A stretch of DNA of 64,000 nucleotides from Zanthoxylum bungeanum (lineage: Eukaryota > Streptophyta > Magnoliopsida > Sapindales > Rutaceae): assembly GCA_019454045.1 (NCBI GenBank), contig SKCR01047743.1, positions 1-64,000 of the forward strand. Direction: 5' to 3'. Position numbers and translations under genes: made by a program. A model generated the notes under the pieces. That model was given only the letters and a program-made list of their open reading frames with translations. It was not told the origin of the DNA and ran no database searches. Positions 12,013-60,443 of the stretch are shown piece by piece (the first letter of the stretch is position 1; every line of letters starts with the position of its first letter).

Positions 12013-12559
12013 TGTGGACAACAGAACCTGGGCGACGCCGTTTCTAGGCTCGCATTTCTGGTTGGGAAGTACTAAATAATATGGAGTCGCCACCCGGTGT
12101 GAACCGGGACACAAGATTTAAGGCCGCACTCACCCCTCGCAAGGGAAGACCTCAAACCGTGGGTCGGAATGGTCCCTTACTCATGTCACTTGTAATGAAA
12201 GGATTTATGTAACAATTTAATCGAGCTAAGTAAATTTATTCCACAAATATCATGCTTCTAGATTCATATGCATACATCAACAAGTTCATCACAACATGCA
12301 ACATCACATGACAATCTCATGAACATATTTCAATCCTATGATATGGAAAACTAAGAACAACCTAATCATGCTTGAGTACTATCTCACGAGCCTATTAACC
12401 AAATAACCTGCTAACAGCCTAATCATGCTTGAATACAATCCCAAGAACACATATAATGGATAAATGCAAGAATACAAATAATACGGTTGGCTATAAACAC
12501 AAGAAAGATCAACCAAGAGACAATTATGCACGAATATGATAAGACAGACTCAGTTCAGT

Positions 12560-12830
12560 GTGTACGCGTTCGTAAACGCGTTCGAACGGTAAACATAAGG
12601 TTCGCGTTCGTGTATGGTGTTGATAACGCGTTCGAACGGAAATAAGACAGAATGCTCGCGTTCTTATGGCGTTTGATAACGCGTTCGAACGTAAAATGAA
12701 ACAGAATGCTCGCGTTCGTATGGCGTTTGATAACGCGTTCGAACGAAAGTGAGACCTGATGCATGACAGGCAAAATACATGCGCGCGAGTTCGAGTTGCG
12801 TTCGTAAACGCGTTCGAACGGGAACAGACC
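12560..12830. repeat. LTR minisatellite around the palindrome CGTTCGAACG
   Basis: Five units of about 50-75 bp each contain CGTTCGAACG, mostly preceded by GATAACG or GTAAACG and followed by a short A-rich spacer and GCTCGCGTTCGTATGG. The equivalent array in the other LTR is at 19780-20040, also five units. Minus-strand open frames here are translations of the repeat. Confidence 0.85.
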
Positions 12831-12934
12831 TGATGCATGAAATAGGACGCAATACATAAATGACAAAATAAAAGGGGCGCGTCGAAGTACTGCCGTAAAG
12901 GTGGCCTTTTGGGGGCTCTTGATCTCTCAAAAGA

Positions 12935-13330
12935 GAGGACCTTTAGACCAACATACTAAGCCCATGCGCTCGACTGAATCATGCTACATAGAATGAAAAG
13001 CAATAATATTAAACATAGTGTGCCCGATTGAACGTATCTTGTATCCAACCGAACACACATCAACCGGCGCGGCAAAGCCTCGTGGTAAAGGGCTTTAGCC
13101 CCTCCCCATAGGGGATCTCACATCGCACTTACTAAGCCCATGCGCTCGGTTGAATCATGCATACAAAAATAAAGACAATCATATCAAACTAAGTATGTCC
13201 GATTGAACGTATTTCGCATTCAACCGAACACACATCAATCGGTGCGGCAGAGCATCGTGGTGAAGGATTTTAACCCTCCGATTAGGGAACCTTTCATCGC
13301 ACTTACTAAGCCCATGCACTCAATCGTATC
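12935..13330. repeat. LTR tandem repeat of about 190 bp
   Basis: Two full units and part of a third share CTTACTAAGCCCATGCGCTC, a GATTGAACGTAT block, CCGAACACACATCAA and a GCGGCA..GC.TCGTGGT block. The same array occurs in the other LTR at 20165-20560. Confidence 0.75.
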
Positions 13331-14747
13331 ATACGGGAATAAACAACATGCAGAATTTAAATAACAAGAAATAGATAGACCAAATCAACACAAAACAAGA
13401 GAAGGTGCCGTTTACTCAAGTGGTACGTGGAGTTGTGTCCCAAGTACAGACCGCACTACCGTCCATTCGGATTCGGCTACGGAATTTACGTCTGGGTTTC
13501 CATCCTATATACCACAGAAGAGACGACACTCTTCCATTTCATTCAAGGCACAACATGCATCCATAAACGACTCTCATGCGAATAAAATTCAATAACAAAA
13601 GAAACGGATAGAAACTAATGAAAAAGTGCCCTCAGGTCTAACCTTTTAAGTCGTCTCTCGGACTCGCGTTTCAAGAAGATCGGAGGGGTGGTAAAGCTCC
13701 GCAACTCTTCCGGTTCACTGGTTCACTGCTCTCGTTCGTGTCTTATTGTTTTGGGTCGTCGTCCGTCCTCCGTCTTTTGCTGCGTTTGTTTTGACTCGAT
13801 TCGCTGCCGCTTGCCACTGTTTTGCTGCTATATTTAGTTACTGTTTTGGGATGTTTTGGCTACTGTTTTGGGTGTTATTTTTGGTGGTGTTATGGTGTGG
13901 TTCGGGGGCTGTTTTATGTGTGTGTTTAGGGCTGTTTGGGATGTGTTTTTCGGTGAGGTGAGGGGGCTGTTCGGGATGTGTTTTTGGTCAAGGCGATGGG
14001 AGTTCTTTGGGTTTGTGATCTTTGTTATTGAGAGTGAGGGAATTGTGTCTATGAGCTTGGGTGTTTCTTATGTGAATGAGCTCGCTAGCCCTGAGAAGGT
14101 TGGTGAAGGGTTCTTTTTATAGGCAAAAGGGTTAGGCTTGACAAGGAAAGGGATTGATTGGCTTGGATAAGGGAAGTCAAAGATTGATGGGGACAAATCT
14201 TGGCTAGATAGGGAAGGTTGAATATTTAGTTTATGTTAATTAGGCATACAATATTTTAAAGTTGGGAATAATATATTGGTTGATTGATTTTAACTTGGTA
14301 TGATTATATTTGATTGGTTTAGATTAGGCATTTAGTTGTTGGTTGATTTAATTAGGCATGCAATTTCTTTAATTTGTGTAAGTATTTTATTTAATTGGTA
14401 TATGATTTTTAGATTTGTTTTGATTTCACCATGTGTTAAATATGTGTTTTAAGTGGGCTTTGGCGTGTGGGCCAAGGGTTTGGGCGAATTGGGCTTAATG
14501 TGAGGCTAGCAGCAAAACCAGAATTACCGACACCGTTCGAACGCTTACTCGAATGCGGCACCAACGTCCGCAATCTGCCTTATGTTCGAACGAAGTAACG
14601 AACGCAGCACCAGCGAAAACAGTGAACCTTGTTTATTCTGAATTCCCCTTCCGATGTCCGTTTTCCGTGACCTCCGTGACTTAAAAGGTAGTGTCTCCAA
14701 AATGAGACTCATCATAGGGACTCATGTGTAAAAATGCAGTGCCTACA

Positions 14748-14759: not shown

Positions 14760-14959
14760 GATGGGACTTGTGTAATGTGCAACAGTGACAATCCTATCAA
14801 AGTATGCAATGCATTTTCACTTACCTGGCTCGCCAGCTGCCACTTTGACTTACAATGTGTTGAGTTGAGTTGATTGGATGGTGAGGTACTGCGACCCCTG
14901 GTTCATTCCCGAACCGTGCTTCCATTCTTGGAGTGTCATTCCCATCTTGTTCATTCTCG

Positions 14960-16230
14960 AACTGTGTTGAGATGAGGCTATATTCCTCTCGAGCTTTATT
15001 CCCGAACTGTTGAGGTGAGGCTTTATTCCTCCCGAGCTTTATTCCCGAACTGTTGAGGTGAGGCTTTATTCCTCCCGAGCTTTATTCTCGAACTGTTAAG
15101 ATGAGGCTTTATTCCTCCGAGCTTTGTTCCCGAACTGTTGACATGAGGCTTTATTCCTGAACTGTGTTGAGATGAGGCTTTATTCCTCTAGGCTTTCTTC
15201 CTTCAATTATGTTGATCGTGGGCTTTGTTCCCGAATTGTTGTAGAGAGTGAGCTTTGTTCCCTGACTGTGTTAACTGTGGGCTTTATCCATGAACTGAGC
15301 TGAATGCAGGCTTTCTTCCTGAATTGTACTGAATGTGGGCTTTATTCCCGAACTGCACTAGATGTGGGCTTTATTCCCGTACTGAGCTGAATGCAGGCTT
15401 TCTTCCTGAAATGAACTGAATGTGGGCTTTATTCCCGAGTTTGCTGGACGTAGGCTTTCTTCCTGAATTGTATTGAATGTGGGCTTTATTCCCGAACTGC
15501 ACTGAATGTGGGCTTTATTCCCGTACTGAGCTAAATGCAGGCTTTCTTCCTGAACTAAACTGAATGTGGGCTTTATTCCCGAGTTTGCTGGACGTAGGCT
15601 TTCTTCCTGAATTGTATTGAATGTGGGCTTTATTCCCGAACTGCACTGAGTGTGGGCTTTATTCCCGAACTGTGCTGACATGAGGCTTTCTTCCCCATGA
15701 GCTTTGTTCTCAAACTATACTGATATGAGGCTTTCTTCCCCTTGAGTTTGTTCTCAAACTATACTGACATGAGGCTTTCTTCCCCTTAAGCTTTGTTCTC
15801 AAACTATACTGATATGAGGCTTTCTTCCCCTTGAGCTTTGTTCTCAAAAATACTGATATGAGGCTTTCTTCCCCTTGAGCTTTATTCCCAACTATACTGA
15901 TATGAGGCTTTCTTCCCCTTGAGCTTTGTTCTCAAACTATACTGATATGAGGCTTTCTTCCCCTTGAGCTTTATTCCCGAACTATACTGACATGAGGCTT
16001 TGTTCCTGGATTGTACCGAATGTAGGCTTTATTCCCGAGCTGAACTAAATATAGGCTTTCTTCCTTAACTGATATGGGCCTCGCCCTCCATCTGATATGG
16101 GCCTCGCCCCCGAGCTGACATGGGCCTCGCCCCCAAGCTAAAGATGATGTGGGCCTCGGCCCTGAACTGATACTGATGTGGGCCTCGCCCTCAAACTGAT
16201 ATTGATATGGGCCTCGCCCCTATGTTGATA
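14960..16230 (-). repeat. Compound tandem-repeat array in element B
   Basis: Four related blocks follow one another. 14960-15190 is built on GAGGCTTTATTCCTCCCGAGC, 15240-15660 on GGGCTTTATTCCCGAACTG alternating with GCAGGCTTTCTTCCTGAA, 15660-16010 on GAGGCTTTCTTCCCC followed by GAGCTTTGTTCTCAAACTAT, and 16070-16225 on ATGGGCCTCGCCC. Unit length shifts from block to block, so the array seems to have grown by repeated local amplification. It lies between gag and the downstream LTR, where pol would be expected. The long minus-strand frame at 15358-15681 is the repeat read in phase. Confidence 0.9.
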
Positions 16231-19223: not shown

Positions 19224-21302
19224 TGTGGACAACAGAACCTGGGTGACGCCGTTTCTAGGCTCGCATTTCTGGTTGGGAATACTAAATAATATGGAGCCGC
19301 CACCCGTGTGAACCGGGACAAAGATTTAAGGCCGCACTCACCCCTCGCAAGGGAATACCTCATACCGTTGGGTTCGGAATGGTCCCTTACTCATGTCACT
19401 TGTAATGAAAGGATTTATGTAACAATTTAATCGAGCTTAAGTAACATTTATTTCCACAAATATCATGCTTCTAGATTCATATGCATACATCAACAAGTTC
19501 GTCACAACATGCAACATCACATGACAATCTCATGACATATTTCAATCCTATGATATGGAAAACTAAGAACAACCTAATCATGCTTGAGTACTATCTCACG
19601 AGCCTATTAACCAAATAACCTGCTAACAGCCTAATCATGCTTGAATACAATCCCAAGAACACATAGAATGGATAAATGCAAGAATACAAATAATACGGTT
19701 GGCTATATAACACAAGAAAGATCAACCAAGAGACAATTATGCACGAATATGATAAGACAGACTCAGTTCAGTGTGTGCGCGTTCGTGTAGCGTTCGTAAA
19801 TGCGTTCGAACGGTAAACAGAAGGTTCGCATTCATATGGCGTTTGATAACGCGTTCGAACGGAAATGCGACAGAATGCTCGCTTTCGTATGGCGTTTGAT
19901 AACGCGTTCGAACGTAAATGAAACAGAATGCTCGCGTTCGTATGGCGTTTGATAACGCGTTCGAACGAAAGTGAGACCTGATGCATGACAAGGCAAAATA
20001 CATGCGCGTTCGATTTGCGTTCGTAAACACGTTCGAACGGGAACAGACCTGATGCATGAAATGGGACGCAATACATAAATGACAAAATAAAGGGGCGCGG
20101 CGAAGTACTGCCGTAAAGGTGGCCTTTTGGGGCTCTTGATCTCTCAAAGAGAGGACCTTTAGACCAACATACTAAGCCCATGCGCTCGACTGAATCATGC
20201 ATACATAGAATGAAAAGCAATAATATTAAACATATGTGCCCGATTGAACGTATCTTGTATCCAACAGAACACACATTAACCGGCGCGGTAAAGCCTCGTG
20301 GTAAAGGGCTTTAGCCCTTCCCCATAGGGGATCTCACATCGCACTTACTAAGCCCATGCGCTCGGTTGAATCATGCATACAAAAATAAAGACAATCATAT
20401 CAAACTAAGTATGTCCGATTGAACGTATTTCGCATTCAACCGAACACACATCAATCGGTGGCGGCAGAGCATCGTGGTGAAGGATTTTAACCCTCCGATT
20501 AGGGAACCTTTCATCATCGCACTTACTAAGCCCATGCACTCAATCGTATCATAACGGGAATAAACAACATGCAGAATTTAAATAACAAGAAATAGATAGA
20601 CCAAAGCAACACAAAACAAGAGAATGTGTCGTTTACTACTCAAGTGGTACGTGGAGTTGTGTCCCAAGTACAGACAGACCGCACTACCCATACGTCCATT
20701 CGGATTCGGCTATGGAATTTACGTCTGGGTTTCCATCCTATATACCACAAGAGACGACACACTTCCATTTCATTCAAGCCACAACATGCATCCATAAACG
20801 ACTCTCATGCGAATAAAATTCAATAACAAAAGAAACAGATAGAAACTAATGAAAAAGTGCCCTCCCTCAGGTCTAACCTTTTAAGTCGTCTCTCGGACTC
20901 GCGTTTCATGAAGATCGGAAGGGGTTAAGCTCCGCAACTCTTCCGGTTCACTGGTTCACTGCTCTCGTTCGTTGTCTTATTGTTTTGGGTCGTCGTCCTC
21001 TGTCTTTTGCTGCTGTTTTGACTCCGATTCGCTGCCGCTGCCACTGTTTTGCTGCTGCATTTTAGTTACTATTTTTGGGATGTTTTGGCTACTGTTTGGG
21101 TGTTATTTTCGGTGGTGTTATGGTGTGGTTCGGGGGGCTGTTTTATTTGTGTGTTTAGGGCTGCTTGGGATGTGTTTTTCGGTGAGGTGAGGGGGCTGTT
21201 CGGGATGTGTTTTTTGGTCAAGGCGATGAGAGTTCTTGGGTTTGTGATCTTTTGTTATTGAGAGTGAGGGAGAATTGTTCTATGAGCTGGGTGTTTCTTA
21301 TG
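19224..21302 (-). mobile_element. Upstream LTR of element B, first part, minus strand
   Basis: This stretch is colinear with 12013-14055 of the other B LTR, including the CGTTCGAACG array (19780-20040) and the 190-bp array (20165-20560), with scattered small indels. Element A interrupts it at 21302/21303 and the rest resumes at 33381. Open frames on both strands are shared with the other LTR and reflect repeats, not genes. Confidence 0.85.
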
Positions 21303-21602
21303 TGATGAGTGATATTTATATCACTATTTCTCACTCATTTGACCTAATGTTTTGTATTGTTTCTCGAGTTTTATGAACGTTTTGATGTGTTTTGTTGTTA
21401 TTTTGCAGATAAATAAAGTCTGGACAGCACTGGAGGCAATTGGGGTAAAAACCGGACAAAAATGCGTCAACATGAATATTTTCATCTTCTGCGCGTCGCG
21501 ACGCTGGATCATTGCGCGCCGCGACGCCCAACATGCACCGGTTTTGCTAAAATGCGCCGGGTCAACGGTCAACAATTTGAAAAGTTTGACTTTGCTAACG
21601 TG

Positions 21603-21921
21603 CGCCGTGCCACGTGTCACCATCACAGAAGACTTGCTAACTTACGCTGCCACGTGTCATCATCACAACGGTGCCGACAATCATCATCTATGCTATCTTG
21701 CGCCAGGACACGTGTCAACATCATAACGGCCTTGCTAAAATGCACCCATGCCACGTGTCACGATCACACGCTGCCGAAAATCTTACCTCATGGTGACGTA
21801 AGCAATGACGTCATGAACAGTGCCACATCATCAGATAAGATCTGAGTCAACGAACCAGCAAGTGACACGTGTCACTGTAGCGCGCGTCGCGACGCGCAGA
21901 CCCTATCGACGCCTATAAATA
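21603..21921 (+). promoter_or_regulatory. LTR promoter: G-box array, as-1-like site and TATA box
   Basis: Five CACGTGTC sites start at 21611, 21651, 21709, 21752 and about 21867; the last lies in the perfect 16-bp palindrome AGTGACACGTGTCACT (21861-21876). An as-1-like pair TGACGTAAGCAATGACGTCA lies at 21794-21813, with two TGACG cores 12 bp apart. TATAAATA follows at 21914-21921. ACGT-core sites bind bZIP or bHLH factors and as-1 sites bind TGA factors, so stress- or hormone-responsive transcription is a reasonable inference. The 3' LTR keeps the same layout (as-1-like copy at 32144-32163). Confidence 0.65.
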
Positions 21922-22196
21922 GAGCGCGAGATTTCAGTTTTTGTTGTACCATTTCCTCCCACTTCTTTGATGTAGTTAGGGAGTTTTTCTCTGTCTAAGT
22001 TTCTTTAATATAGTTTTGTAATTTTTAATTAAGTTCTGTAATAATAATATTTACTTTCTTTATTTTACAGTTTTTACTACTTATTATGAGGAGGTAACTT
22101 CCCTCTGTTAAGGTAAAAGGTAATTCTTTTACTATTGCTTCTTAGATTATTCTCCCATAATTATAATATATTCAAGTTTTAAATTGACTTAATCAG

Positions 22197-22415
22197 GATA
22201 CCGCCAGATTGGTCGGTGGGTATAAATTCATATTCCGATTCCGCCTTTATGGCTGGTTATTTTGGTTCCGCCTATATGGCTGGTTGTTTTCATTCCGCCT
22301 TTATGGCTGGTTATTTTCACTCCGCCTATATGGCTGGTTTATATTAATGATTCCGCCTTTATGGCTGGTTGTTTTTTAACTGATTAAATCAAATATACCG
22401 CCTATATGGCTGGTT
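22197..22415 (+). repeat. Interspersed CCGCCTATATGGCTGGTT repeat in LTR
   Basis: Six to seven copies of CCGCC(TA/TT)TATGGCTGGTT are separated by AT-rich spacers of variable length. The same motif array occurs in the 3' LTR (32571-32785) and in variant form (CCGCCTATATGGTCGGTT) in the LTRs at 1545-1700 and 59385-59525. Confidence 0.85.
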
Positions 22416-23326
22416 GGTAATGTTTTGCAAAGCTTATTTATTTATGGGAGAAATCTAATTAGTATATAGTAGAAGTAATTCCTTTTACCTTAGCAATTAT
22501 TTTAATTCACTTTCAGCATTTATTTTATTTACTACCGCATTTACTTTATGCAATTTTATTTTAAGTCTTTTAAGTTCTTAGCCTTAGTTATGTGTCGTAG
22601 CTAAGTTAGTTATCTAGGGTTGTGATGAATTTCAATTAAACCTGTTTATAAGGGTTAGATTATAGTTTGGGTAATTTAAAGATTTATTTATTGAGTCTTA
22701 ATCTTAATGCTCTTTAATTAACTGGCCATTAATTAAATTGATTAGGTAAACTTAAAATGAACTAGACATAGGGATTTTAAGTTTAAGACCTTAGACTCAT
22801 AGCCACACGATCTTCCTTGAGGATAGATAACATAGAGATTTCCTTACAGGATAGGAATATACCTGTTGGGCGGGGGTAGCCATAATTGGAACTTAATCTT
22901 AATGAATCTAGGTAATTTGGTTGACATAGGCATATGGTTCAATTGGATTATACTAGGTATTTGTAATTGACCATCGGAAGAGGCTTTGCATAAATTAGTG
23001 TTTCAGGTTAATAAATTGATATATTACCCAACTATAGGATAACTACTTCATCTTTTAAATAATATTGAAATAAATCACAACCCTGGATAGTTTTTATAAA
23101 TTAATTTTCATCATTTCGCTTAAGCAAAAGTTATTTACTTGTTTTAAATTTAGAATCATCGCCTTTTTCCAACCAAATCAATCAATCTGTTAGATACCAG
23201 TAAACAGTTAACCTCATATAAATTGATAACAAAAGTTTTAAGTCCTCGTGGGATCGATACTTTTTATACTACTTGAACGATACGTACGCTTGCGTTATAC
23301 GTGTGTGTTTACGCCGGTCAAGTTTT

Positions 23327-23344
23327 TGGCACCGTTGCCGGGGA
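23327..23344 (+). other. Primer binding site of element A
   Basis: TGGCACCGTTGCCGGGGA starts six bases after the LTR end. It fits the tRNA-Asp-type primer known for Athila-group elements (usually TGGCGCC, here TGGCACC). Confidence 0.8.
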
Positions 23345-23432
23345 CTTAGTTATCTTTTATTATTAGTTTAGGGGTTAGATACTTTTACTTATTGTTTTTG
23401 TTTTCTTGTGTTTCAAGTTCTCAGAAAACTTC

Positions 23433-25018
23433 ATGAGACGAACCAGAAGCTTTGAACTCCGACCGCTTGACCCAGAAATTGAAAGAACCATCAGACAGTT
23501 GAGAAGGGAAAGGCGAGAAGCCCAAGAAGCTTTAGTCACATGGAACCTGAACCTTTGGAGGTTGCACCACCAATTCCCATTCGAGACAGAACCATTCCGG
23601 TGGTTGACAGACTCATTTCATGTATTGTACTTCCTCCATTACCAGCAAATGCGGGTGACATCAAAACTTGCATTCAGATGATTCAGCAGTCAGTTCAGTT
23701 TGGAGAAATGCAACTGAAGATCCTAATGCCCACATCAGCAACTTCCTGGAATTTGTTTCGGCACTTTCAATTACAACCGAGAAGCTGAAGAAGCAATGAG
23801 ACTGCGTGTTTCCCATACTCCTTGAAGGACAGAGCTAAAGCGTGGCTACATTCATTACCAGCAGGGTCTATCACAACATGGAACACTTTAGCCACCAAAT
23901 TTCTTGCAAAATACTTTCCACCAGCCAGAACCGGAAAGCTGAGAAATGACATCACATCCTTTTGTGCAGCAAGATTCAGAATCCATGTACGAAGCTTGGG
24001 AAAGGTATAAAGATTTACTCCGGAAATGTCCACACCATGAGATTCCAAAATGGCTTCAAGTCCCAAACATTCTATAATGGACTTTCTGGAATAATGAGAA
24101 CCACAATTGATGCTGCTGCTGGAGGTGCCTTGATGGCAAAAGGAGAAGATCAAGCCTGGGAACTAATCGAAGAAATGGCCAACAACAATTCCTTGTGGCC
24201 AACAGAAAGAAGTCTGATTCAAAGAATTGCAGGAATTTGAAGTTGGAGCCAATACAGGTCAACACCAAGCTAGATCAAATATGCAAATTCATGGAGACTC
24301 TTACCACTGGATCCACAAGTTCACCATATGGAGGAGCACCAGAACCAAATCAACTTGAAGAAACGGTGATTATGTCAACAATTTCAACAGACAGGGAACA
24401 ATCCATATTCCAACACCTACAACCCAGGGTGGAGGAATCATCCTAATTTTTCATGGAGCAACAATTCAGGCCAACAGCGAACTATCCACCACTGGATTCC
24501 AGCAACAGAATAAAGGCCAGGAGCAGACAAATGAACCAGTGATGGCAGAGATGTTAGCTCAATTAAAAAGATATGAAGCCATGATTCAGAGCCAATCAGC
24601 TTCCATCAAAGCACTGGAGAATCAAATCGGACAACTGGCCAATGCTCAGAGCTACAGACCGCCAGGTAATCTTCCCAGCAACACAGAACCAAATCCAAGG
24701 AACCGAGGGAAGGAGCAATGTCAAGCCATTACCTTAAAGAGTGGTACTGAGATCAACAAAGATGTTGGAGTCAAAACAGCTGCTGAGGAAGTTCCAAAAG
24801 AGGCAGTTCCACAGATGGAAAAAAAAAAGAGCAAAAGAAAAGAAGCAAAGGAAAAGAAAAAGAACAGATCACTCCACCACCACCTTTTCCTCAACGTCTT
24901 CAGAAAAACAAACTGGACAAACAGTTTGCTCGTTTCTTGGAGATTTTCAAAAAGCTGCACATTAACATACCATTTGCAGAAGCCTTGGAACAAATGCCCA
25001 GTTATGTCAAATTCATGA
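23433..25018 (+). pseudogene. gag of element A, frameshifted
   Basis: gag begins at ATG 23433 with MRRTRSFELRPLDPEIERT, typical of Athila gag starts. The frame is lost near 23540, again near 23800 and again near 24000. The central gag core is at 23822-24010, including WLHSLPAGSITTWNTLATKF and KYFPPARTGKLRND. The C-terminal part (24539-24740) has ALENQIGQLANAQSYRP followed by an acidic/basic linker. At least three frameshifts make this copy inactive, but all parts are colinear with the C copy at 60552-61890. Confidence 0.85.
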
Positions 25019-25070
25019 AAGACATTCTTTCACGAAAACGGAGATTGGGAGAGACTACGAAACAGTAGCT

Positions 25071-25535
25071 TTGACAGAAGAATGCAGCGCCATCATTCAG
25101 AGGAAACTTCCCCCGAAGTTGAAAGATCCTGGCAGTTTCACAGTTCCATGCACCATTGGAGAACATTACATCGGTAAGGCTTTATGTGATTTAGGTGCCA
25201 GTGTTAATTTAATGCCTTTTTCTATTTACAGGAAATTGCAAATTGGAGAAGCAATGCCTACCTCAGTATCTTTGCAACTTGCTGATCGAACACTCGCATT
25301 TCCGAGAGGAGTCGTTGAAAATGTGCTTGTCAAAGTTGACAAACTCATTCTTCCAGCAGACTTCATCATCCTTGACATGGAAGAAGACAAAGAAGTACCT
25401 ATCATTCTTGGGAGACCATTTTTGGCTACAGGTAAAACTGTGATTGATGTGCAAAAAGGAGAACTAACCATGAAAGTGCAGGACCAAGAAGTGACCTTTA
25501 ATGTTTTCCAAGCCATGAAAATTTCCAAGCGATGA
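25071..25535 (+). pseudogene. Protease region of element A
   Basis: This is an aspartic protease that would cut the polyprotein. The frame reads GKALCDLGASVNLMPFSIY, then ADFIILDMEED and VPIILGRPFLATGKTVIDV. The active-site triad appears as DLGAS rather than the usual D[ST]GA; I believe this variant is seen in Athila relatives. The segment is open for 154 codons but is separated by stops or frame changes from gag and from RT. It lies directly upstream of pol, as expected for Ty3/gypsy. Confidence 0.8.
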
Positions 25536-25726
25536 AAAGGAAGAAGAAGAATGCTTCAGAATTGATGTTGTTGATAAAATTGTTCAGAATACTGAGTCAA
25601 ATCCCACGGATACACTTGAAGCTTGCATCACCAACATGACTGACAGCGAGCTAGATGCTGAAATCTTGGAATGTATCAATACCTTGACAAACCATTCCGA
25701 TTCAAAGTAACACCACCATTGAAAGC

Positions 25727-28695
25727 TTGGAACTGCCAAAGAAAGATCGAATCAAGCCTTCGATTGAAGAACCACCACAGCTGGAATTAAAGTTACTTCC
25801 GAGCCATCTCAGGTATGCATTTCTTGGAAACTCTTCTGAATTACCTGTTATTATTTCTTCTTCTCTAACATTGGATCAGGAAGAAAAGCTACTGAGAGTA
25901 TTACGAGCACAAAAGAGCAAAAGAGCCATTGGCTGGACTATAGCAGACATTCGAGGCATTAGTCCATCATTTTGCATGCACAAGATTCTGATGAATGATG
26001 AATACAAACCCACAGTGGAACATCAACGGAGACTCAATCCAATCATGAAGGAAGTCGTGAAAAAGAAATCATCAAATGGTTGGATGCTGGCATCATTTAC
26101 CCCATCTCAGATAGCACTTGGGTAAGTCCTATGCAGTGTGTACCAAAGAAGGAGGAATTACTGTTGTCACAATGAAAAAAACGAGCTGATTCCAACAAGA
26201 ACGGTGACTGGATGGAGAGTATGTATGGATTACAGGAAGCTGAACAAAGCCACGAGAAAGGACCCTTTTCCGCTGCCATTCATTGACCAGATGTTAGACA
26301 GACTGAGGGGACATGAGTTCTATTGCTTTCTTGACGGATATTCAGGGTACAATCAGATTGCCATCGCACCAGAAGACCAGGAGAAAACTACTTTTACATG
26401 TCCCTATGGTACTTTTGCTTTCCTTCCGCAGGATGCTATTTGGATTATGTAATGCCCCTTCCACACGTTTCAGCGTTGCATGATGGCCATCTTCTCAGAC
26501 ATGCTGGAGCAGAGTATGGAGGTTTTATGGATGATTTTTTTTCTGTGTTTGGAGATTCTTTTGACCATTGTTTGAAAAATTTGGAACAGGTATTACAAAG
26601 GTGCGAAGATACAACCTGGTACTCAACTGGGAGAAATGCCACTTTCATGGTGCAAGAAGGCATTGTTCTTGGACACCGGATCTCACAAAAAGGAATCGAG
26701 GTAGACAAAGCAAAGATAGAAACAATTGAGAAACTACCTCCACCAACATCTGTCAAAGGGATTCGAAGTTTTCTTGGACATGCAGGTTTTTACAGGAGAT
26801 TTATCAAAGACTTTTCCAAGATTGCCAAACCTCTTTGCAATCTTATGGAAAAGGATGTGCCTTTCAACTTCACCAAAGAATTCCAGGAAGCTTTCGAAAT
26901 CTTAAAACAGAAGCTAATTTCTGCCCCCATCATTGTAGCACCAGATTGGACCCTTCCATTCGAGGTAATGTGTGATGCTAGTGATTTTGCTGTAGCTGCA
27001 GTTTTGGGACAACGTAAAGCAAATATTTTCCACACCATTTACTACTCCAGCAGAACTCTGAATGAAGCTCAACTCAACTACACAACCACTGAAAATGAGT
27101 TGCTAGCAGTTGTGTACGCTTTTGACAAATTCCGCTCCTATCTGCTGGGTCCCAAAGTGGTGGTCTACACAGATCATTCAGCAATCAAATATATGATCAC
27201 AAAGAAAGATGCCAACACCAGATTGATCCGTTGGATACTTCTTTTGCAAGAATTCGACGTGGAGATCCGAGACAGGAAAGGAACAGAAAACCAGGTGGCA
27301 GATCACTTATCAAGACTCGAGAATGGAGAAACAGCTGGCAAAGAATTATCAATCAAAGAAACTTTTCCAGATGAACAGCTGTTTGCCATGAAACAACAGG
27401 AAGTCCATTGGTATGCTGACTATGTCAACTACATCGTATCAGGAAAATGTCCGTTGGAATGGACAACTCAACAACGGAAGAAGTTCTTCAAAGAAGTCAA
27501 GCACTATGTCTGGGATGAACCGTACCTGTTTAAACGCTGTGCTGATCAAATATTGAGACGATGTGTTCCACAGGAGGAGGTCAACAGTGTTTTGCAACAC
27601 TGTCATTCATCACCATACGGCAGACACTTCAGCGGAAACAAAACTGCAGCCAAAGTCCTTCAATCATGTTTGTTCTGGCCCACACTTTTTAAAGATGCTT
27701 ATCTTTTTGCTTTTCAATGTGACAGGTGCCAGAGAATGGGGAATATTTCCAGGAGAAACGAAGGACCGTTGCAAAATATTATGGAAGTGGAGATATTCGA
27801 TGTATGGGGTATTGATTTCATGGGACCCTTTGTTCCATCATTTGGAAACCTGTACATCCTGGTTGTTGTAGACTACGTTTCCAAATGGGTTGAGGCAATT
27901 GCACTACCATCCAATGATTCCAAAGTGGTGATCAAATTCCCGAAAAAGAACATTTTCACTCGGTTTGGAACACCTCGAGCAATCATCAGCGATGAAGGCT
28001 CTCATTTCTGCAACAAATACTTCGATGCACTCCTATCCAAATACGGAGTTACTCACAAAGTTGCCACTGCTTACCATCCACAGTCAAATGGAGAGGTTGA
28101 GGTTTCAAACAGGGAGATCAAGAGAATCCTAGAAAGGACCGTTGGATCAACAAGGAGGGACTGGTCTACAAAACTGGATGATGCATTATGGGCCTACCGA
28201 ACAGCTTACAAGACACCCATTGGTATGTCACCATATCAATTGGTGTTTGGGAAAGCATGCCATCTTCCAGTTGAGCTTGAACACAAGGCGTACTGGGCAC
28301 TGAAGAAGTTGAATCTTGATTCACAAGCAGCAGGAGAGAAAAGACTTCACCAACTCAATGAATTGGAGGAGGAATTTCGCCAGGCTTATGACAATGCCAA
28401 ATTGTACAAGGAAAAGACCAAAAAATGGCATGACCGAAAAATAGTGCACAGACAATTGGAACCAAGGCAGCAGGTGTTGTTGTACAACTCGAGATTGAAA
28501 CTTTTCCCTGGAAAGTTGAAATCTAGGTGGTCCGGACCATTTCTGATCACTCAGGTTTTACCATATGGAGCCGTTGAGTTACTGGATCCCAATACCAACA
28601 ACACATTCAAGGTTAACAGTCAGCGTGTCAAGCACTACTGGGGAGAATCATTTGAGCGACAAAAAGAAAGTGTCACACTTTCAGATCCAGCATAA
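25727..28695 (+). pseudogene. pol of element A: RT, RNase H, integrase
   Basis: The domain order RT, RNase H, integrase places it in Ty3/gypsy. RT starts in 25727-26125, shifts near 26130 and again near 26430. It keeps [31 protein letters not shown] and the catalytic FMDDFF (about 26524). From 26398 to 28695 the frame is open for 765 codons: RNase H with [35 protein letters not shown] and YTDHSAIKY; integrase zinc finger ([11 protein letters not shown], then CDRCQRMG); catalytic Asp at 27813, Asp at 27991 and Glu at 28099 (D-35-E spacing); and an Athila-type C-terminus. RNase H and integrase look undamaged, while RT has at least two frameshifts. Confidence 0.9.
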
Positions 28696-28834: not shown

Positions 28835-29191
28835 ATGGAAGAAGCTATCGCAAATCTTCACAAGCAATTTCCTTCTCTTCCTCAAAAATCTCTGATGAAA
28901 GTCTACAAAGCTCACTGGGAACAGATGAGGTTACTGACAATCTATGGTGTTCCCAATGACATTCGTTGGGTAATTGAAGCACGAGTCCGATTGGCAGGTG
29001 AGTCTTCTGATTCTTTTATTTCACATCTGCCTGGTTTTGGAAGAAGCACCTATGCAAAGAAACGAAGAGCTAAGCAAATGGGTGTTTGTTACAAATGTGC
29101 ACGTTGGAATTGCAACACTCGTTGTCGTTCTTTAGGAATGGTGTGTCTGATAATCGCGAAGACAAAATTAAATTCATTAGGGATGGCTTGA
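28835..29191 (+). CDS. Post-pol ORF with carlavirus NABP-like basic/cysteine motif
   Basis: A 118-codon ORF starts at ATG 28835 in good context (AAAATGG), 140 bp after the pol stop. Residues 1-60 (MEEAIANLHKQFPSLPQK...) are helical-looking and unfamiliar. Residues 68-80 read GFGRSTYAKKRRA, followed by cysteines at 85, 88, 93 and 97 (C-x2-C-x4-C-x3-C). A GRSTY-basic-C-x2-C layout is typical of the small nucleic-acid-binding proteins of carlaviruses; the spacing after the second cysteine is shorter here. If the resemblance is real, the protein would bind nucleic acid and the KKRRAK run could direct it to the nucleus. Alternatively an intron starts within it, since GGTGAGTC at 28998 looks like a splice donor, and the cysteine part is then intronic. 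Family assignment is tentative. Confidence 0.4.
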   Translation: MEEAIANLHKQFPSLPQKSLMKVYKAHWEQMRLLTIYGVPNDIRWVIEARVRLAGESSDSFISHLPGFGRSTYAKKRRAKQMGVCYKCARWNCNTRCRSLGMVCLIIAKTKLNSLGMA

Positions 29192-29391
29192 GTAAGGAGT
29201 CTTTAGATGATATATCTTCGACTCTTGAGACGCTTCCCAGTGGATATGTTCACATAGAATTTCGCAGATTACATACACAATTTCAAAAAGAAAGACAACA
29301 GTTAAGTCTTGGGAATCTGACTCAAAAAGACCTTGTTTGCCAATTTATAAGAAAATTGGATGGAAACTTGTCTCTGACGCATAGACGTTAA
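29136..29391 (+). pseudogene. Second post-pol frame, unrecognised
   Basis: This frame overlaps the end of the preceding ORF in a different phase. From about 29136 it reads like ordinary protein (NGVSDNREDKIKFIRDGLS, then SGYVHIEFRRLHTQFQKERQ) and stops at 29391. TTCTTTAG immediately before 29136 could be a splice acceptor, so this may be a second exon of the upstream ORF; equally, a frameshift may separate them. I do not recognise a family. Confidence 0.3.
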
Positions 29392-29474: not shown

Positions 29475-29569
29475 ATCCAGATCTTGTTGACTATCACGAT
29501 CTATTTTACTATTTTGCTACTAATCGTCATTTGGAAGATACTTGTGCTATTTTTACTCACCCTTTTCAG
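29475..29569 (+). other. Possible exon-like coding segment
   Basis: The stretch is preceded by TTTCTCCGACAG and followed by CAGGTATTA, so it has acceptor- and donor-like edges. In one frame it reads DPDLVDYHDLFYYF and on to THPFQ with normal codon use. The shifted frame is hydrophobic, probably by chance. No family is recognised. Confidence 0.25.
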
Positions 29570-29615
29570 GTATTATAAATTCAACTCATCATTGCACTTT
29601 TGAAGGCATCCTGAT

Positions 29616-30314
29616 TTGAAAAAGAAATACATAAAAAAATGGAAGCCACTTCAAGAAGACGAGTTTGAAAAAATCTGTGTTTTTGCGTGCGGTAGTACTG
29701 TTGGTACTAAACCACAATACATAGAAGCAGCACAGGAATTGGGTCGAGTCTTAGCTGCAAGGAATATGCACTTAATATATGGCGGAGGCAATCTCGGACT
29801 TATGGGGATCGTTTCAAAGGCCGTACAGGAAGGAGGCAGTCATGTTTTGGGAATCGTCCCAAAACCCTTGGCAGAGGCAAATCTTATTGGATCATCAAAC
29901 GGAGAGGAACTGATCGTATCATGTATGTCTGAACGTTTGGTAGAAATGATTAACCGTGCTGATGCTTTTATTGCTTTGCCAGGTGGCTTGGGCACATCAG
30001 AGGAAATTTTTATTGTACTATCTTGGGCGAACCTGAACATACACCAGAAACCAATTGGACTGCTCAAACCAATTGGACTGCTCAACGTTGATGGATTTTA
30101 TGATTTTCTTTGTGTGTTTCTTGATGATGCTCGGAGAAATGGGTTCGTGTCAAAACCTATGAAAGAACTCCTCTTCACTGCCAGACTTGCTCTGGATCTA
30201 ATAGACCAACTCATAGCCTATGAACCACAAGTTGACCCTATCCTATCAAAGACAAATTGGTCTGAGGACGATCGTGGTAAGAGGCGTCGAATTAATCTGG
30301 ATCTTAACCTTTAA
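29616..30314 (+). CDS. LOG-like domain (cytokinin riboside 5'-monophosphate phosphoribohydrolase) in a retrotransposon
   Basis: The open frame covers a full LOG-family fold. LOG enzymes release active cytokinin bases from their riboside monophosphates in the cytosol and nucleus. Seen here: the first strand ICVFACGS (one residue longer than usual), IYGGGNLGLMG near 29776, an arginine in the MSERLVEM segment where plant LOGs have an RK pair (the lysine is replaced by leucine), and the signature PGGLGTSEE at 29979-30005. A direct 18-bp duplication at 30051-30086 repeats KPIGLL. The C-terminus adds a tail not typical of LOG: KRRR (30279-30290) then LDLNL (30297-30311), like a nuclear signal plus an EAR repression motif. 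No ATG precedes the fold in frame (the frame opens after TGA 29601), so expression would need splicing or fusion. It lies 1.3 kb upstream of the 3' LTR of element A. Confidence 0.75.
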   Translation: MKKKYIKKWKPLQEDEFEKICVFACGSTVGTKPQYIEAAQELGRVLAARNMHLIYGGGNLGLMGIVSKAVQEGGSHVLGIVPKPLAEANLIGSSNGEELIVSCMSERLVEMINRADAFIALPGGLGTSEEIFIVLSWANLNIHQKPIGLLKPIGLLNVDGFYDFLCVFLDDARRNGFVSKPMKELLFTARLALDLIDQLIAYEPQVDPILSKTNWSEDDRGKRRRINLDLNL

Positions 30315-30372
30315 TTTCCTGTAGATTTCAGCTAACCAAGTACAACCTTCTAACTCTCCTTTTACTGTTTAA

Positions 30373-30411
30373 GACATTGGGGACAATGTCTCATTTAGGT
30401 TTGGGGGAGGG
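30373..30411 (+). other. Hairpin GACATTG-GGGA-CAATGTC followed by a purine tract
   Basis: A perfect 7-bp stem with a GGGA tetraloop (30373-30390) is followed by TTTGGGGGAGGG (30400-30411). A similar ACATTG..GACAATGT plus TTTGGGGG block is common downstream of pol in Athila-type elements. It could be an RNA structure and a second plus-strand priming site. Confidence 0.5.
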
Positions 30412-30854
30412 ATTTAGTTGATTAGTACCTTGTTTTTAGTTTGAATGTTGTTTTTATTTTTAGTCCAAAATTTTTCGAAAAATACAAAAAAATTGAAAAA
30501 TTTTCAAAAAATTACAAAAATATTTTGCATTTTTGTCTTTGTGTTTTGACTAAAAAGGTGGAATTGGTAAGAGATAGCCGAGTAAGAAGTTTCCACTCCT
30601 GAGACGTATCTCAAACCATTTATTTCAAAACAAGTTAATTTTTGTTTATTTCATTTTAAATTATTTAATTCGTAAATTCTCCTTAACACTGACTAAAATG
30701 GATCTTCATATACTCCGTTGGCAGGTATTATCAACATACATGGAAACATACGGTCATAAGCTAAAATTGAAAAGTTTGTAATATTCCGTGCTATAGCTTA
30801 ATTGGAGGAAGCATCTCTAAATAGTGATGGAGTAAAAAAAAAATATATGTGTCT

Positions 30855-31640: not shown

Positions 31641-31651
31641 GTTTGGGGGTG
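31636..31651 (+). other. Polypurine tract of element A
   Basis: TTAGGTTTGGGGGTG lies directly before the LTR start TGATGAGTGG. Element C has the equivalent TTAGGTTTGAGGGTG before 58551. Confidence 0.7.
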
Positions 31652-33042
31652 TGATGAGTGGTATTTATATCACTATTTCTCACTCATTTGACCTAATATT
31701 TTTTATTGTTTCTCGAGTTTTATGAACGTTTTGATGTGTTTTGTTGTTATTTTGCAGATAAATAAAGTCTGGACAGCACTGGAGGCAATTTGGGGTAAAA
31801 CCGGACAAAAATGCGTCAACAGGAATATTTTCATCTTCTGCGCGTCGCGACGCTGGATCATTGCGCGCCGCGACGCCCAACATGCACCGGTTTTGCTAAA
31901 ATGCACCGGGTCAACGGGTCAACAATTTGAAAAGTTTGACTTTGCTAACGTGCGCCGTGCCACGTGTCACCATCACAGAAGACTTGCTAACTTGCGCTGC
32001 CACGTGTCATCATCACAACGGTGCCGACAATCATCATCTATGCTATCTTGCGCCAGGACACGTGTCAACATCATAACGGCCTTGCTAAAATGCGCCTATG
32101 CCACGTGTCACGATCACACGCTGCCGAAAATCTTACCTCATGGTGACGTAAGCAATGACGTCATGAACAGTGCCACGTCATCGGATAAGATCTGAGTCAA
32201 CGAACCAGCAAGTGACACGTGTCACTGTAGCGCGCGTCGCGACGCGGCCCTAGCGTCGCGACGCGCAGACCCTATCGACGCCTATAAATAGAGCGCGAGA
32301 TTTCAGTTTTTGTTGTACCATTTCCTCCCACTTCTTTGATGTAGTTAGGGAGTTCTTCTCTCTCTAAGTTTCTTTTAATATAGTTTTGTAAATTTTAATT
32401 AAGTTCTGTAATAATAATAATTTACTTTCTTTATTTTACAATTTTTACTACTTATTATGAGGAGGTAACTTCCCTCTGTTAAGGTAAAAGGTAATTCTTT
32501 TACTATTGCTTCTTAGATTATTCTCCCATAATTATAATATATTCAAGTTTTAAATTGACTTAATCAGGATACCGCCAGATTGGTCGGTGGGTAATAAAAT
32601 TCATATTTCGCCTTTATGGCTGGTTATTTTGGTTCCGCCTATATGGCTGGTTGTTTTCATTCCGCCTTTATGGCTGGTTATTTTCACTCCGCCTATATGG
32701 CTGGTTTATATTAATGATTCTGCCTTTATGGCTGGTTGTTTTTAACTGATTAAATCAAAATACCGCCTATATGGCTGGTTGGTAATGTTTTGGAAAGCTT
32801 ATATTATATTATGGGAGAAATCTAATTAGTATATAGTAGAAGTAATTCATTTTACCTTAGCAATTATTTTAATTCACTTTCAGCATTTATTTTACCGCAT
32901 TTACTTTATGCAATTTTATTTTAAGTCTTTTAAGTTCTTAGCCTTAGTTATGTGTCGTAGCTAAGTTAGTTATCTAGGGTTGTGATGAATTTCAATTAAA
33001 CCGGTTTATAAGGGTTAGATTATAGTTTAGTTAGATTATAGT
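31652..33042 (+). mobile_element. 3' LTR of element A, truncated
   Basis: It is colinear with 21303 to about 22675, including the G-box array, as-1-like site and TATA box. It stops at about 33042, so the last 600 bp or so is missing. One clear length difference from the 5' LTR is a 20-odd-bp GC-rich insertion that repeats the CGTCGCGACGCG palindrome near 32230-32265. The LTRs are otherwise very similar, indicating a fairly recent insertion. Confidence 0.85.
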
Positions 33043-33380
33043 TAGCAAGTCTTCTGTGATGGTGACACGTGGCATGGCGCACGTTAGCAAAGTCAAACTT
33101 TTCAAATTGTTGACCTGTTGACCCGGCGCATTTTAGCAAAACCGGCGCATGTTGGGCGTCGCGGCGCGCAATGATCTAGCGTCGCGACGCGCAGAAGATG
33201 AAAATATTCCCGTTGACGCATTTTTCTCCGATTTTGCCCCAAATTGCCTCCAGTGCTATCGAGACTTTATTTATCTGCAAAATAACAACAAAACACATCA
33301 AAACGTTCATAAAACTCGAGAAACAATACAAAATATTAGGTCAAATGAGTGAGAAATAGTGATATAAATACCACTCATCA
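33043..33380 (-). mobile_element. Inverted head of an A-type LTR
   Basis: This stretch is the reverse complement of about 31652-31990, ending CCACTCATCA at 33380. It directly abuts the truncated 3' LTR in head-to-tail-inverted arrangement. The next base (33381) belongs to element B. It is a rearrangement product or the remains of a second, oppositely oriented insertion. Confidence 0.85.
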
Positions 33381-33957
33381 GTCCTCCGTCTTTTGCTGCT
33401 GTTTTGACTCCGATTCGCTGCCGCTGCCACTGTTTTACTACTGTATTTTAGTTACTGTTTTTGGGATGTTTTGGCTACTGTTTTGGGTGTTATTTTCGGT
33501 GGTGTTATGGTGTGGTTCGGGGGGCTGTTTTATGTGTGTGTTTAGGGCTGCTTGTGATGTGTTTTTCGGTGAGGTGAGGGGGCTGTTCGGGATGTGTTTT
33601 TGGTCAAGGCGATGGGAGTTCTTTGGGTTTGTGATCTTTTGTTATTGAGAGTGAGGGAGAATTGTGTCTATGAGCTTGGGTGTTTCTTATGTGAATGAGC
33701 TAGCTAGCCCTGAGAAGGTTGGTGAAGGATTCTTTTTATAGGCAAAAGGGTTAGGCTTGACAAGGAAAGGGATTTGATTGGCTTGGATAAGGGAAGTCAA
33801 AGATTGAGGGGGGACAAATCTTGGCTAGATAGGGAAGGTTGAATATTTAGTTTATGTTGATTAGGCATACAATATTTTAAGTTTGGGAATAATATATTGG
33901 TTGATTGATTTTAACTTGGTATGATTATATTTGATTGGTTTAGATTAGGCATTTAGT
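33381..33957 (-). mobile_element. Upstream LTR of element B, second part
   Basis: B sequence resumes at GTCCTCCGTC, which corresponds to about 20994 in the first part, so roughly 310 bp (20994-21302) is present on both sides of element A. It continues to match 13770-14335 until 33957, where E-type sequence begins. About 410 bp of the LTR end is missing. Confidence 0.8.
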
Positions 33958-39514: not shown

Positions 39515-41160
39515 AACCATATATGAAAAGAATGAGAAATAAATTAGGGGGGAAACCCTCAAATTCTAAGATAACATTAATCTTTTTCCCTATCTTGAGT
39601 GTTGAGAAAATTATAGCTTGTGTCATGATGTAAAATATAGTTGCAATTTCAAATCAGATCGTTTTTCTTGGCTATCAACTAGTTGTGTAGTGTTAGCAAC
39701 TTGAAATACTAATTAAGTGCATTTTGTTGGGGGAATAGAAAACAATTGCATCACCAGGGCGTGGAATTTTGGCCATGGATGAGTCAAATGCAACCTGTGG
39801 AAAGCGTCTTGCCTCAATTGGGCTAGAGAACACTGAGGCTAACCGCCAGGCATACCGTACCCTCCTAGTCACAGCCCCTGGTCTTGGTCAGTATATCTCT
39901 GGTGCCATCCTCTTTGAGGAGACTCTCTACCAATCAACCACTGATGGTAGGAAGATGGTTGATGTGCTTGTTGAGCAAAACATTGTCCCTGGTATCAAAG
40001 TCGACAAGGTAATTAAGATAATTACCTTAGATATTGTTATTAAATTCATGCATTCTATTGTGTTATTGGGACAAGAATGATATTCCAACTTGTGTTTTGA
40101 CAATGAATATAACAGGGTTTGGTTCCCCTTGCTGGTTCCAACGATGAGTCATGGTGCCAGGGTCTTGATGGCCTTGCTTCTCGCACAGCTGCTTACTACC
40201 AACAGGGAGCTCGTTTTGCCAAATGGTATGTGTGTATATATATATATATCTATTACTTAATCTGAGAAAAATTAACTATGTATTCAAATTGGTTTCAAAT
40301 GTAATATATAAAATATTGATTTAATTTGATTGATTAGGCGTACCGTTGTGAGCATTCCCAATGGTCCATCTGCCTTGGCAGTCAAGGAAGCATCCTGGGG
40401 TCTCGCCCGCTATGCTGCCATTGCACAAGTAAGATATCTCAACTACAACTTGTTTACCCAACTATTTTTTTTTTTCTGATCATTGATAAAATTTTGATAC
40501 TTGGAGCTTGTAGGACAACGGATTGGTCCCAATTGTGGAGCCAGAAATCTTGCTTGATGGTGAACATGGCATTGACAGGACTTTCGAAGTAGCTCAGAAG
40601 GTTTGGGCCGAAGTTTTCTTCTACCTTGCTGAGAACAATGTCATGTTTGAGGGTATTCTCCTCAAGCCTAGCATGGTCACTCCTGGTGCTGAATGCAAGG
40701 ACAAAGCCACACCACAGCAGGTTGCTGACTACACCCTCAAGCTCCTCCACAGGAGAATCCCCCCAGCTGTCCCTGGAATCATGGTAAGTTTCTTAAACAA
40801 AACCCTTCAGTTTCCCAATTCTAATCAAAATGTTTTTGCAAACTCATTGACTGATGCATTGAAACTTATCGTATTTTGCAGTTCTTGTCTGGTGGGCAAT
40901 CTGAGGTTGAGGCGACCCTCAACTTGAACGCCATGAACCAAGGTCCCAACCCATGGCATGTGTCATTCTCTTATGCCAGAGCTCTCCAAAACACCTGCCT
41001 GAAGACATGGGGCGGCAGGCCAGAGAGTGTAAAGGAGGCTCAGGACACTCTGCTTGTCCGTGCCAAGGCCAACTCACTTGCTCAGCTTGGCAAGTACACC
41101 GGTGAGGGAGAGTCAGATGAGGCCAAGCAAGGAATGTTTGTCAAGGGCTACGTTTACTAA
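39031..41160 (+). CDS. FBA: Fructose-bisphosphate aldolase, class I, chloroplast type
   Basis: This enzyme catalyses reversible cleavage of fructose 1,6-bisphosphate, and sedoheptulose 1,7-bisphosphate in the Calvin-Benson cycle, in the plastid stroma. Six exons with GT-AG borders give 397 codons: 39031-39204, 39739-40008, 40116-40225, 40338-40428, 40514-40783 and 40882-41160. Exons 1, 2, 5 and 6 start in phase 0; the exon 3/4 border splits a Trp codon. Residues 1-46 are Ser/Ala-rich ([12 protein letters not shown]), a likely transit peptide. The body has [68 protein letters not shown] and the Schiff-base lysine in [12 protein letters not shown]. The C-terminus ends KGYVY with the conserved final Tyr. 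Length equals that of known plastid aldolases. No defect is seen; intron 1 has a run of 30 T (39483-39512). Confidence 0.97.
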
Positions 41161-57639: not shown

Positions 57640-58299
57640 CCCTAACATGATAACCAAGCACAACCATCGCAACAACCTCCCCAGGTACACCAGAATTTCC
57701 GAAATTCCTAGAATTATATACCATATGTCCCACCACCTAGGAAAACCTTGCATGCATTCATTAAAAAATAAGAAGTCATCAATAACCAAAATGTGCAAAC
57801 ATTGATTGATCTGAAAGATACTTTCTCCAAAATTGCAACTGCATTGTCCATTAATGAGAAAGGAAAGTTTCCTCCACAACCACAACCAAACCCCAAGAGT
57901 CATCAAAACCCTCACAATAGTAGTTCTGGCAGTCAACACATAGATCAAGTCAAATCTATTATTACTCTTCACAGTGGTAAGATCATCCACAGACCTATTC
58001 TTGAACCTCACGAAGTTGAAAATAAATCGGATTCAGAGGGTAAAGAAAGGGTTGATGAACCATTATCTATCATTGATGAAAATAATTTTTCTCATACACC
58101 TCAATTGGCTCAAGCATTAAAAACAAAGAAATTGAACTATTCCCCAGAGATATACGAAATATTCAAACAGGTGAATGTCAATATTCCTTTGTTAGATGTC
58201 ATCCAACAGATATCATCTTATGTCAAATTTCTAAAAGACTTGTGTACCGTTAAAAGAAAACATCAGGTAAGAAAGAAAGCTTTTCAACCTGATACATAA
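57640..58299 (+). pseudogene. Athila-type gag C-terminal fragment
   Basis: The frame from 57793 reads QTLIDLKDTFSKIATALSIN, then VKSIITLHSGKIIHRPILEP, and later VNVNIPLLDVIQQISSYVKF and CTVKRKHQVRKKAF, the segment between the gag core and protease of Athila elements. It ends at 58299, just where protease would begin. The next bases are already the 3' untranslated region, so protease and pol were lost in one deletion. Confidence 0.7.
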
Positions 58300-58550
58300 C
58301 TTGTTTATTCTCTTTTCTTTTGTCTTTTTGCTTTTGTGTGCATTAGATTGACGTTTGTGTGTATCGTCACTGTAAGCCCTCACGAGACTACAACTCGTCC
58401 ACTAAGGACACTTAGAGGTTTAAATGCTTGTTGCATACGCTAAATGCAACCGTGATCCCTACGAAAGTGGCTTAGTTTAATTTTTATTGTTTATTGTATT
58501 TTATTTTGTTGTTTTGCTCGAGGACTAGCAAAATGTTAGGTTTGAGGGTG
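58300..58550 (+). mobile_element. 3' untranslated region and polypurine tract before the shared LTR
   Basis: It contains AAGCCCTCACGAGACTACAA, GCTAAATGCAACCGTGATCC and, at the LTR border, TTAGGTTTGAGGGTG. The order is the same as in element A at 31480-31651. Confidence 0.75.
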
Positions 58551-60419: not shown

Positions 60420-60425
60420 AGTTTT

Positions 60426-60443
60426 TGGCACCGTTGCCGGGAA
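60426..60443 (+). other. Primer binding site of element C
   Basis: TGGCACCGTTGCCGGGAA starts six bases after the LTR end, differing from the element A site only near its 3' end. Confidence 0.8.

Follow-up and report, generated by a model that had tools for sequence, protein, structure and literature searches.

A dead Ty3/Gypsy retrotransposon copy with two broken accessory genes, NABP-like and LOG-like, between pol and the 3′ LTR

Introduction

If a retrotransposon carries a gene of the LOG family, does it carry a cytokinin-activating enzyme? This question is raised by a stretch of DNA of 64,000 nucleotides, here called the window, which has the appearance of plant DNA and contains several LTR retrotransposons. 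The original prediction, made from the letters alone, had described a LOG-family ORF inside one of these elements, considering it either as a captured gene that could change the hormone state or as a domesticated accessory gene. The element copy in the window is dead: its two accessory genes are both disrupted, and relatives have intact versions of them. We consider it fairly likely that this Ty3/Gypsy (Athila-like) copy belongs to a lineage with two accessory genes downstream of pol, one NABP-like and one LOG-like with an altered pocket, and that the LOG-like gene is a module which is present in some elements and absent from others. For domestication we found no evidence in the analyses described below.

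Results

The enclosing element

The element is bounded by a 5′ LTR at 21301-22681 and a 3′ LTR at 31650-33041, both on the plus strand, as are all further features of the element given below. The two LTRs have a length of about 1.4 kb and show 35 mismatches and 9 gap events in a global alignment with 1368 aligned bases (K2P 0.026). At substitution rates of 1.3e-8 and 7e-9, this corresponds to an age of the LTR pair of about 1 to 1.9 million years.

The gag-pol region between the LTRs is spread over several frames. It includes a protease-like ORF (24966-25535), for which Pfam gives weak matches that stay below the cut-offs (best E 0.0026). The last ORF of gag-pol is a pol ORF (26335-28695) with RNase H and integrase domains (PF17917, 3.7e-35; PF00665, 1.1e-16; PF17921, 3.5e-8). 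A gag-pol that is flanked by an LTR pair and has RNase H ahead of integrase is the layout of Ty3/Gypsy elements. The lineage is presumably Athila, a name that stems from the original prediction and from features of the 3′ sequence.

Directly next to the 3′ LTR, at 33040-33380, is an inverted fragment from its own LTR family, and some 315 bases that precede the element (20995-21309) occur again at 33381-33699. Together these represent a nested or rearranged insertion. Further repeats in the window are a direct repeat of 2.1 kb (12013-14080 and 19224-21309, 94% identical), part of which occurs again at 33375-33957, and a tandem array at 14950-16100 with periods of 29 and of 44/45 bases. A fragment of a class-I fructose-bisphosphate aldolase is found at 40514-40927 (PF00274, 9e-37, residues 2-90 of 137). 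A second related element (58297-64000) has the same orientation, matches 22584-25575 at 79%, has its gag domain at 60823-61245 and is cut by the window end. In a tblastn search of the window, for which 7 LOG-like relatives and 6 that are NABP-like served as queries, neither accessory gene turned up a second time.

A second accessory gene between pol and LOG

The interval between pol and the LOG-like ORF contains another accessory ORF (28835-29370), which had been missed by the original prediction. Its relative P0121, with 182 aa, matches two pieces in different frames, and the ORF is thus frameshifted in the window. Part 1 (28835-29143, beginning with MEEAIANLHKQ) is 85% identical to residues 1-103 of P0121, and part 2 (29143-29370) is 88% identical to residues 103-178. 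The 182-aa protein is basic and rich in cysteine, with a basic run that is followed by the pattern C-x2-C-x4-C-x3-C. Part 1 is above the cut-off of the Pfam model Carla_C4 (PF01623; 2.2e-6, 28.0 bits vs 20.9) and just misses that of Viral_NABP (PF05515; 22.7 bits vs 23), while P0121 is above both. We refer to this gene as NABP-like.

Relatives of the NABP-like protein are numerous. A single-sequence search returned 69 of them, 65 with PF01623, and a profile search returned 841 at E up to 0.1, from which 120 were listed. Named members among the matches listed are from Xanthoceras, Populus, Acer, Rhamnella and Orobanche, and three clusters, one each for Acer, Populus x canadensis and Xanthoceras, comprise 15, 36 and 47 sequences. 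A length of 181-184 aa is found for 89 of the 158 members collected. The cysteine pattern is present in 98 of the 120 members that have at least 160 residues, and in 87 of the 120 it follows the basic run.

It is a real possibility, even if we lean the other way, that the NABP-like ORF is unrelated to virus proteins, its basic run and zinc finger having arisen independently and its Pfam matches reflecting composition. The spacing of the cysteines is in favour of this, as the carlavirus zinc finger is given as C-x2-C-x12-C-x4-C in the relevant part of PMC8839810 and this spacing is not found in the ORF from the window. The structure model of the NABP-like protein is of low confidence (pTM 0.34) and gave no significant match among virus-protein structures (BFVD; best E 0.11, TM 0.15 and 0.23). 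A solved relative was not found either (best E 0.74). On the other hand, two separate virus models of Pfam match the aligned members, which are half (79) of those collected: at E up to 0.01, PF05515 is found in 72 and PF01623 in 71 of the 79 (best E 1e-8). The PF05515 match spans about 85 residues and thereby reaches past the cysteine cluster. In addition, the weak BFVD matches, 34 in number, include 5 proteins named as silencing suppressors or nucleic-acid-binding proteins of viruses, and the top match is one of these.

According to the carlavirus passages of PMC12172455, cysteine-rich proteins of carlaviruses have been described as silencing suppressors, and p12 of CVB is a weak silencing suppressor and also a hyperplasia-inducing transcription factor. 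A search of titles and abstracts, with most subscription papers outside its coverage, returned, among the papers listed, no earlier description of an NABP-like gene in retrotransposons, and such a gene is likely to be absent from print. The betaflexivirus sequence from cucumber in the part of PMC3136472 that concerns us is replicase-like and different from the NABP-like gene. The section of PMC9289625 on extra domains in retrotransposons names 9 of 15 such domains, and an NABP-like domain is not among these nine.

An independent element in which LOG was not found

An independent locus, L001, supports the view that the NABP-like gene belongs to the element. This contig of 3330 bases, a plant-like retrotransposon, has been filed in a public Nomurabacteria (bacterial) MAG, where it is probably a contamination. 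Its pol aligns with that of the window, and its integrase (rve, 2.4e-16) is followed by an intact NABP-like ORF of 182 aa at 1799-2347 (PF05515, 34.2 vs the cut-off of 23; PF01623, 19.8, just below the cut-off of 20.9). For the NABP-like gene, the comparison between the window and L001 gives a dN of 0.228 and a dS of 0.948, and thus a dN/dS of 0.24 (bootstrap 0.15-0.37, 171 codons). In a pol block of 170 codons, dN is 0.21 and dS is saturated.

The two elements also have in common a 3′ non-coding stretch with GACATTGGGGACAATG, which is located at 30326-30413 in the window (alignment score 68, vs a control mean of 25 and a maximum of 40 in 200 shuffles). From the end of the NABP-like ORF to the CATTGAGGACAATG stretch at 2576 there are about 230 bases in L001, and about 1 kb in the window, where LOG is included. 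By tblastn with 7 LOG relatives, LOG was not found in L001, which stops 983 bases past the NABP-like ORF. At the left end of the LOG segment, the alignment with L001 is not above control (score 56; control mean 49, maximum 77). Either a lineage with the NABP-like gene would have gained the LOG segment, or LOG would have been lost from it; with two elements, gain and loss are inseparable.

The LOG-like gene and its lesions

The LOG-like ORF covers 29604-30314 (236 codons), and its LOG body, with the motifs YGGGNLGLMG and PGGLGTSEE, starts at 29664. The assignment of the original prediction, a LOG-family ORF that follows pol on the same strand and precedes the 3′ LTR, is borne out by the LTR pair, by Pfam (PF03641, 4e-31; PF18306, 3e-16), by NCBIfam (TIGR00730, 2.5e-42, 144.6 bits vs a cut-off of 96.35) and by the match to the solved LOG3 from Arabidopsis (E 2e-55). 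It is also borne out by an AlphaFold2 model of 29664-30311, which was built with 70 relatives and has a mean pLDDT of 83.6. The best PDB matches of this model are LOG3 and LOG8 (E 1e-18 to 1e-17, TM about 0.9 by target length), and with 2a33 (E 9e-19, TM 0.92 by target) it shares the Rossmann fold of LOG proteins. In the alignment with LOG3, the PGGxGTxxE motif occurs as PGGLGTSEE and the catalytic residues Arg99 and Glu122 are present.

The original prediction had regarded an upstream ATG as missing. One is present at 29639, although in a frame other than that of the LOG body, so that the window's gene has no intact coding sequence with a start. This ATG opens the peptide MEATSRRRV (29639-29665), as it does in the intact relatives P0001, P0002 and P0004, and represents the original start of the gene. 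Within the LOG core, a perfect tandem duplication of 18 bp, KPIGLLKPIGLL, occurs at 30048-30083. At the protein level this duplicates KPIGLL, is absent from all 25 aligned relatives and coincides with a drop in model confidence (block means 66 and 77). The first (CGS) motif contains an extra residue, which is absent from all 24 of the 25 aligned relatives that cover this position. With the ATG out of frame, the core duplicated and a residue added to the CGS motif, the window copy is unable to make a normal LOG protein.

The frameshifts in the two accessory ORFs may be mere assembly errors. This is not supported by the LTR pair, where 9 gap events vs 35 mismatches do not make a clear excess.

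Conserved catalytic residues and a rebuilt pocket

A protein search with the LOG-like ORF returned 2299 relatives, and the counts given here are for the best 120 of these; being nearest to the window, they lean towards the residues that the window itself has. The nearest ones, P0001-P0006, are 72-83% identical and come from ENA contigs. Named proteins among the matches listed, including those from Populus, Xanthoceras and Reevesia, are 48-56% identical. Residue roles in the pocket were taken from the Corynebacterium LOG, as given in the structural part of PMC4979012, where Lys100 is among the AMP-site residues.

Catalytic residues are kept by most of the 120 (Arg99 by 109, Glu122 by 115), and so are Glu121 (116), Gly118 (119), Thr119 (113), Trp129 (118) and Met96 (110). 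Replacement prevails at three positions of the pocket: His97 is kept by 34, Lys100 by 14 and Glu125 by 14 of the 120. Where the lysine has been lost, position 100 is Leu in 62, Ile in 29, Met in 14 and Phe in one of them. The window has retained Met and Trp from the prenyl-site set Met96/His97/Lys100/Glu125/Trp129; in place of the His, Lys and Glu it has Ser, Leu and Ile. All five residues are kept in 14 of the 120 listed relatives, Xanthoceras proteins among these. The parts of the protein for catalysis and phosphate binding have been conserved, while the base/prenyl pocket was rebuilt.

A tree was computed from 99 rows, namely the window, 95 of the 120 relatives (those with 195-260 aa, which left out 25 for their length) and 3 reference enzymes, with the lysine column retained in the alignment. 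All 88 rows that lack the lysine are on one side of a single branch (support 99/91), which requires one change. The lysine is present in 11 rows, which comprise 4 from Xanthoceras, the 3 reference enzymes and 4 further proteins. As all lysine-less rows are behind one supported branch, the lysine was probably lost once and before the insertion into the window. The exchange of Lys to Leu pointed out in the original prediction is thus present in the window, but it is common to most near relatives and is not a sign of decay of this copy. The same tree does not support a one-off recent insertion of LOG, which the original prediction had named as the case against itself: in it, the nearest relatives group in a deep clade.

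That the LOG segment was transduced once, was amplified with the element and is a functionless passenger seems rather unlikely. It would fit with the broken copy in the window, with the element L001, in which LOG was not found, and with the replacement of R99 by Gln in 11 of the 120 listed relatives, which suggests that catalysis has been lost in some sublineages. However, a length of 217 aa is shared by 63 of the best 120 relatives (of 2299), and the phosphate-binding and catalytic residues are kept down to about 50% identity, which is unlike neutral decay. Also, the change in the pocket is ordered rather than random. This conservation of length and residues points to selection on LOG, to be read with the ascertainment that comes from a database of predicted ORFs only.

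That a functional cytokinin-activating enzyme was captured by the element and serves to alter the hormone state seems unlikely to us. The retention of PGGxGTxEE and of the catalytic Arg and Glu, and the 14 relatives with a complete set of prenyl-pocket residues, would agree with such an enzyme. Against it, His97, Lys100 and Glu125 have been replaced in the window and in most near relatives. In the mutant data of PMC4979012, as far as that excerpt lists the mutants, alanine changes of “these crucial residues” of the AMP site, with the exception of S19A, nearly abolished AMP hydrolysis. The score with the LOG equivalog of NCBIfam (NF058542) is 105.7 bits, far from the curated cut-off of 300. In addition, the copy in the window is broken, with no in-frame start and with a duplicated core segment. 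Thus, the hormone activation that had been proposed for this gene is not supported, three of the five prenyl-pocket residues being changed here and in most near relatives. Judged by its residues, cytokinin activation by this LOG-like protein is doubtful. The protein has probably kept a phosphoribohydrolase-type chemistry with altered specificity, or it only binds nucleotides.

LOG as cargo of retrotransposons

The proposal that LOG is carried by the retrotransposon has held up. Besides its position within the LTR pair and on the strand of pol, this is supported by relatives which share not only LOG but also its surroundings. Such context can be seen for few relatives, as most are on contigs without visible surroundings. 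The 5′ context of the gene (29531-29638) is common to P0010 and P0009: P0010 matches 29531-29686 by tblastn (E 0.002; the first LOG residues are part of this match), and P0009 resembles P0010 upstream of the LOG start. The CAG at 29567-29569 is separated by 69 nt from the ATG in the window, and the corresponding distance is 23 residues in both P0009 and P0010. By eye, the region 29475-29569 between the NABP-like ORF and LOG is exon-like, with AG and GT at its flanks.

In Xanthoceras, LOG is fused in the gene model P0011 to a piece with a match in the window at 58057 (E 3e-7) and weaker ones at 62068 (E 0.003) and 24853 (E 0.017), the latter two in gag-pol regions. By eye, P0016 carries the same piece.

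The report cited for a LOG-family domain in such elements is said to be that of Steinbauerova et al. 2011. In its section on extra domains, PMC9289625 describes YgdH, a domain of the LOG family, in consensus sequences of LTR retrotransposons from two Citrus species and, without its filter, also in elements from Populus trichocarpa; this result is called “in line with” a 2011 report. With an association in Citrus and Populus in print, at least in that section, LOG cargo as such is already known, and it lends further support to LOG being carried by the element in the window. That LOG is instead a host gene, with the element inserted into or around it, is hardly credible: LOG genes are ordinary plant genes, but this one is enclosed by an LTR pair and follows pol on the same strand, the 3′ sequence of the element that is common to L001 follows directly downstream, and the section of PMC9289625 just mentioned associates LOG with elements.

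Viral contigs were also scanned, and no plant element was found among them; two of the scans did not return any relative. A match in contig L002 lies inside an ORF of 573 aa that, by eye, resembles a phage ATPase/nuclease subunit, and was taken for a chance match. A further scan gave L003-L005, which are 34-38% identical to LOG.

Discussion

The reading that we favour is a lineage of elements with an NABP-like gene downstream of pol, in which a pocket-altered LOG-like gene is a module that some members have. The NABP-like protein would serve the element as a nucleic-acid-binding helper, either as an RNA or DNA chaperone or by interfering with silencing. The LOG-like protein retains the Rossmann fold, the phosphate loop and the catalytic Arg and Glu, and for this reason the binding of nucleoside monophosphates has most likely been preserved, and their cleavage perhaps as well. 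Its base/prenyl pocket was probably rebuilt early in the history of the clade, with the lysine lost on one branch; with such a pocket, its substrate is probably not a classical cytokinin nucleotide. In the lineage, the LOG segment would be present or absent downstream of the NABP-like gene.

For both proteins we infer the function, and the sober reading is that the first is a chaperone of nucleic acids and the second a nucleotide-binding enzyme in modified form. A bolder reading, which we offer tentatively, is that a widespread element lineage took up, or was the source of, an RNA-virus-type gene for a nucleic-acid-binding protein or silencing suppressor that has been kept under purifying selection, that a sublineage added a LOG-derived enzyme with a rebuilt pocket, and that this two-gene module acts on silencing and on the nucleotide or hormone state. 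If the NABP-like protein acts like the carlavirus proteins, the element carries a modulator of silencing or transcription together with a nucleotide enzyme that descends from a hormone enzyme.

LOG cargo has so far been in print as a domain hit. What is added here is that the pocket has changed and has stayed changed in the nearest relatives. As a consequence, the name “cytokinin-activating” may be wrong for such genes, for example for the Populus entries called “LOGL10”. The second conserved gene resembles silencing suppressors of plant RNA viruses, and this would make an exchange between retrotransposons and RNA viruses, as well as a retrotransposon counter to silencing, directly testable.

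Comparison with known systems

With LOG3 and LOG8 from Arabidopsis (2a33, 1ydh), the LOG-like ORF has in common the fold, the PGGxGTxEE motif and the catalytic Arg and Glu. It differs in the prenyl pocket, where His97, Lys100 and Glu125 have become Ser, Leu and Ile, in its tandem duplication and in having no in-frame start.

The Citrus and Populus elements with a YgdH/LOG domain, as treated in the section on extra domains of PMC9289625, resemble the element in the window in that a plant Ty3/Gypsy element has a LOG-family domain as an extra. In that section, neither a change in the pocket nor a companion virus-like ORF is described; the window has both, and its copy, set against those elements, is broken.

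With the cysteine-rich nucleic-acid-binding proteins of carlaviruses and related viruses, the NABP-like protein shares a basic run followed by a cysteine cluster, and it matches PF01623 and PF05515. Unlike the carlavirus proteins, it has 182 aa and another cysteine spacing, and its gene is located after pol in a retrotransposon.
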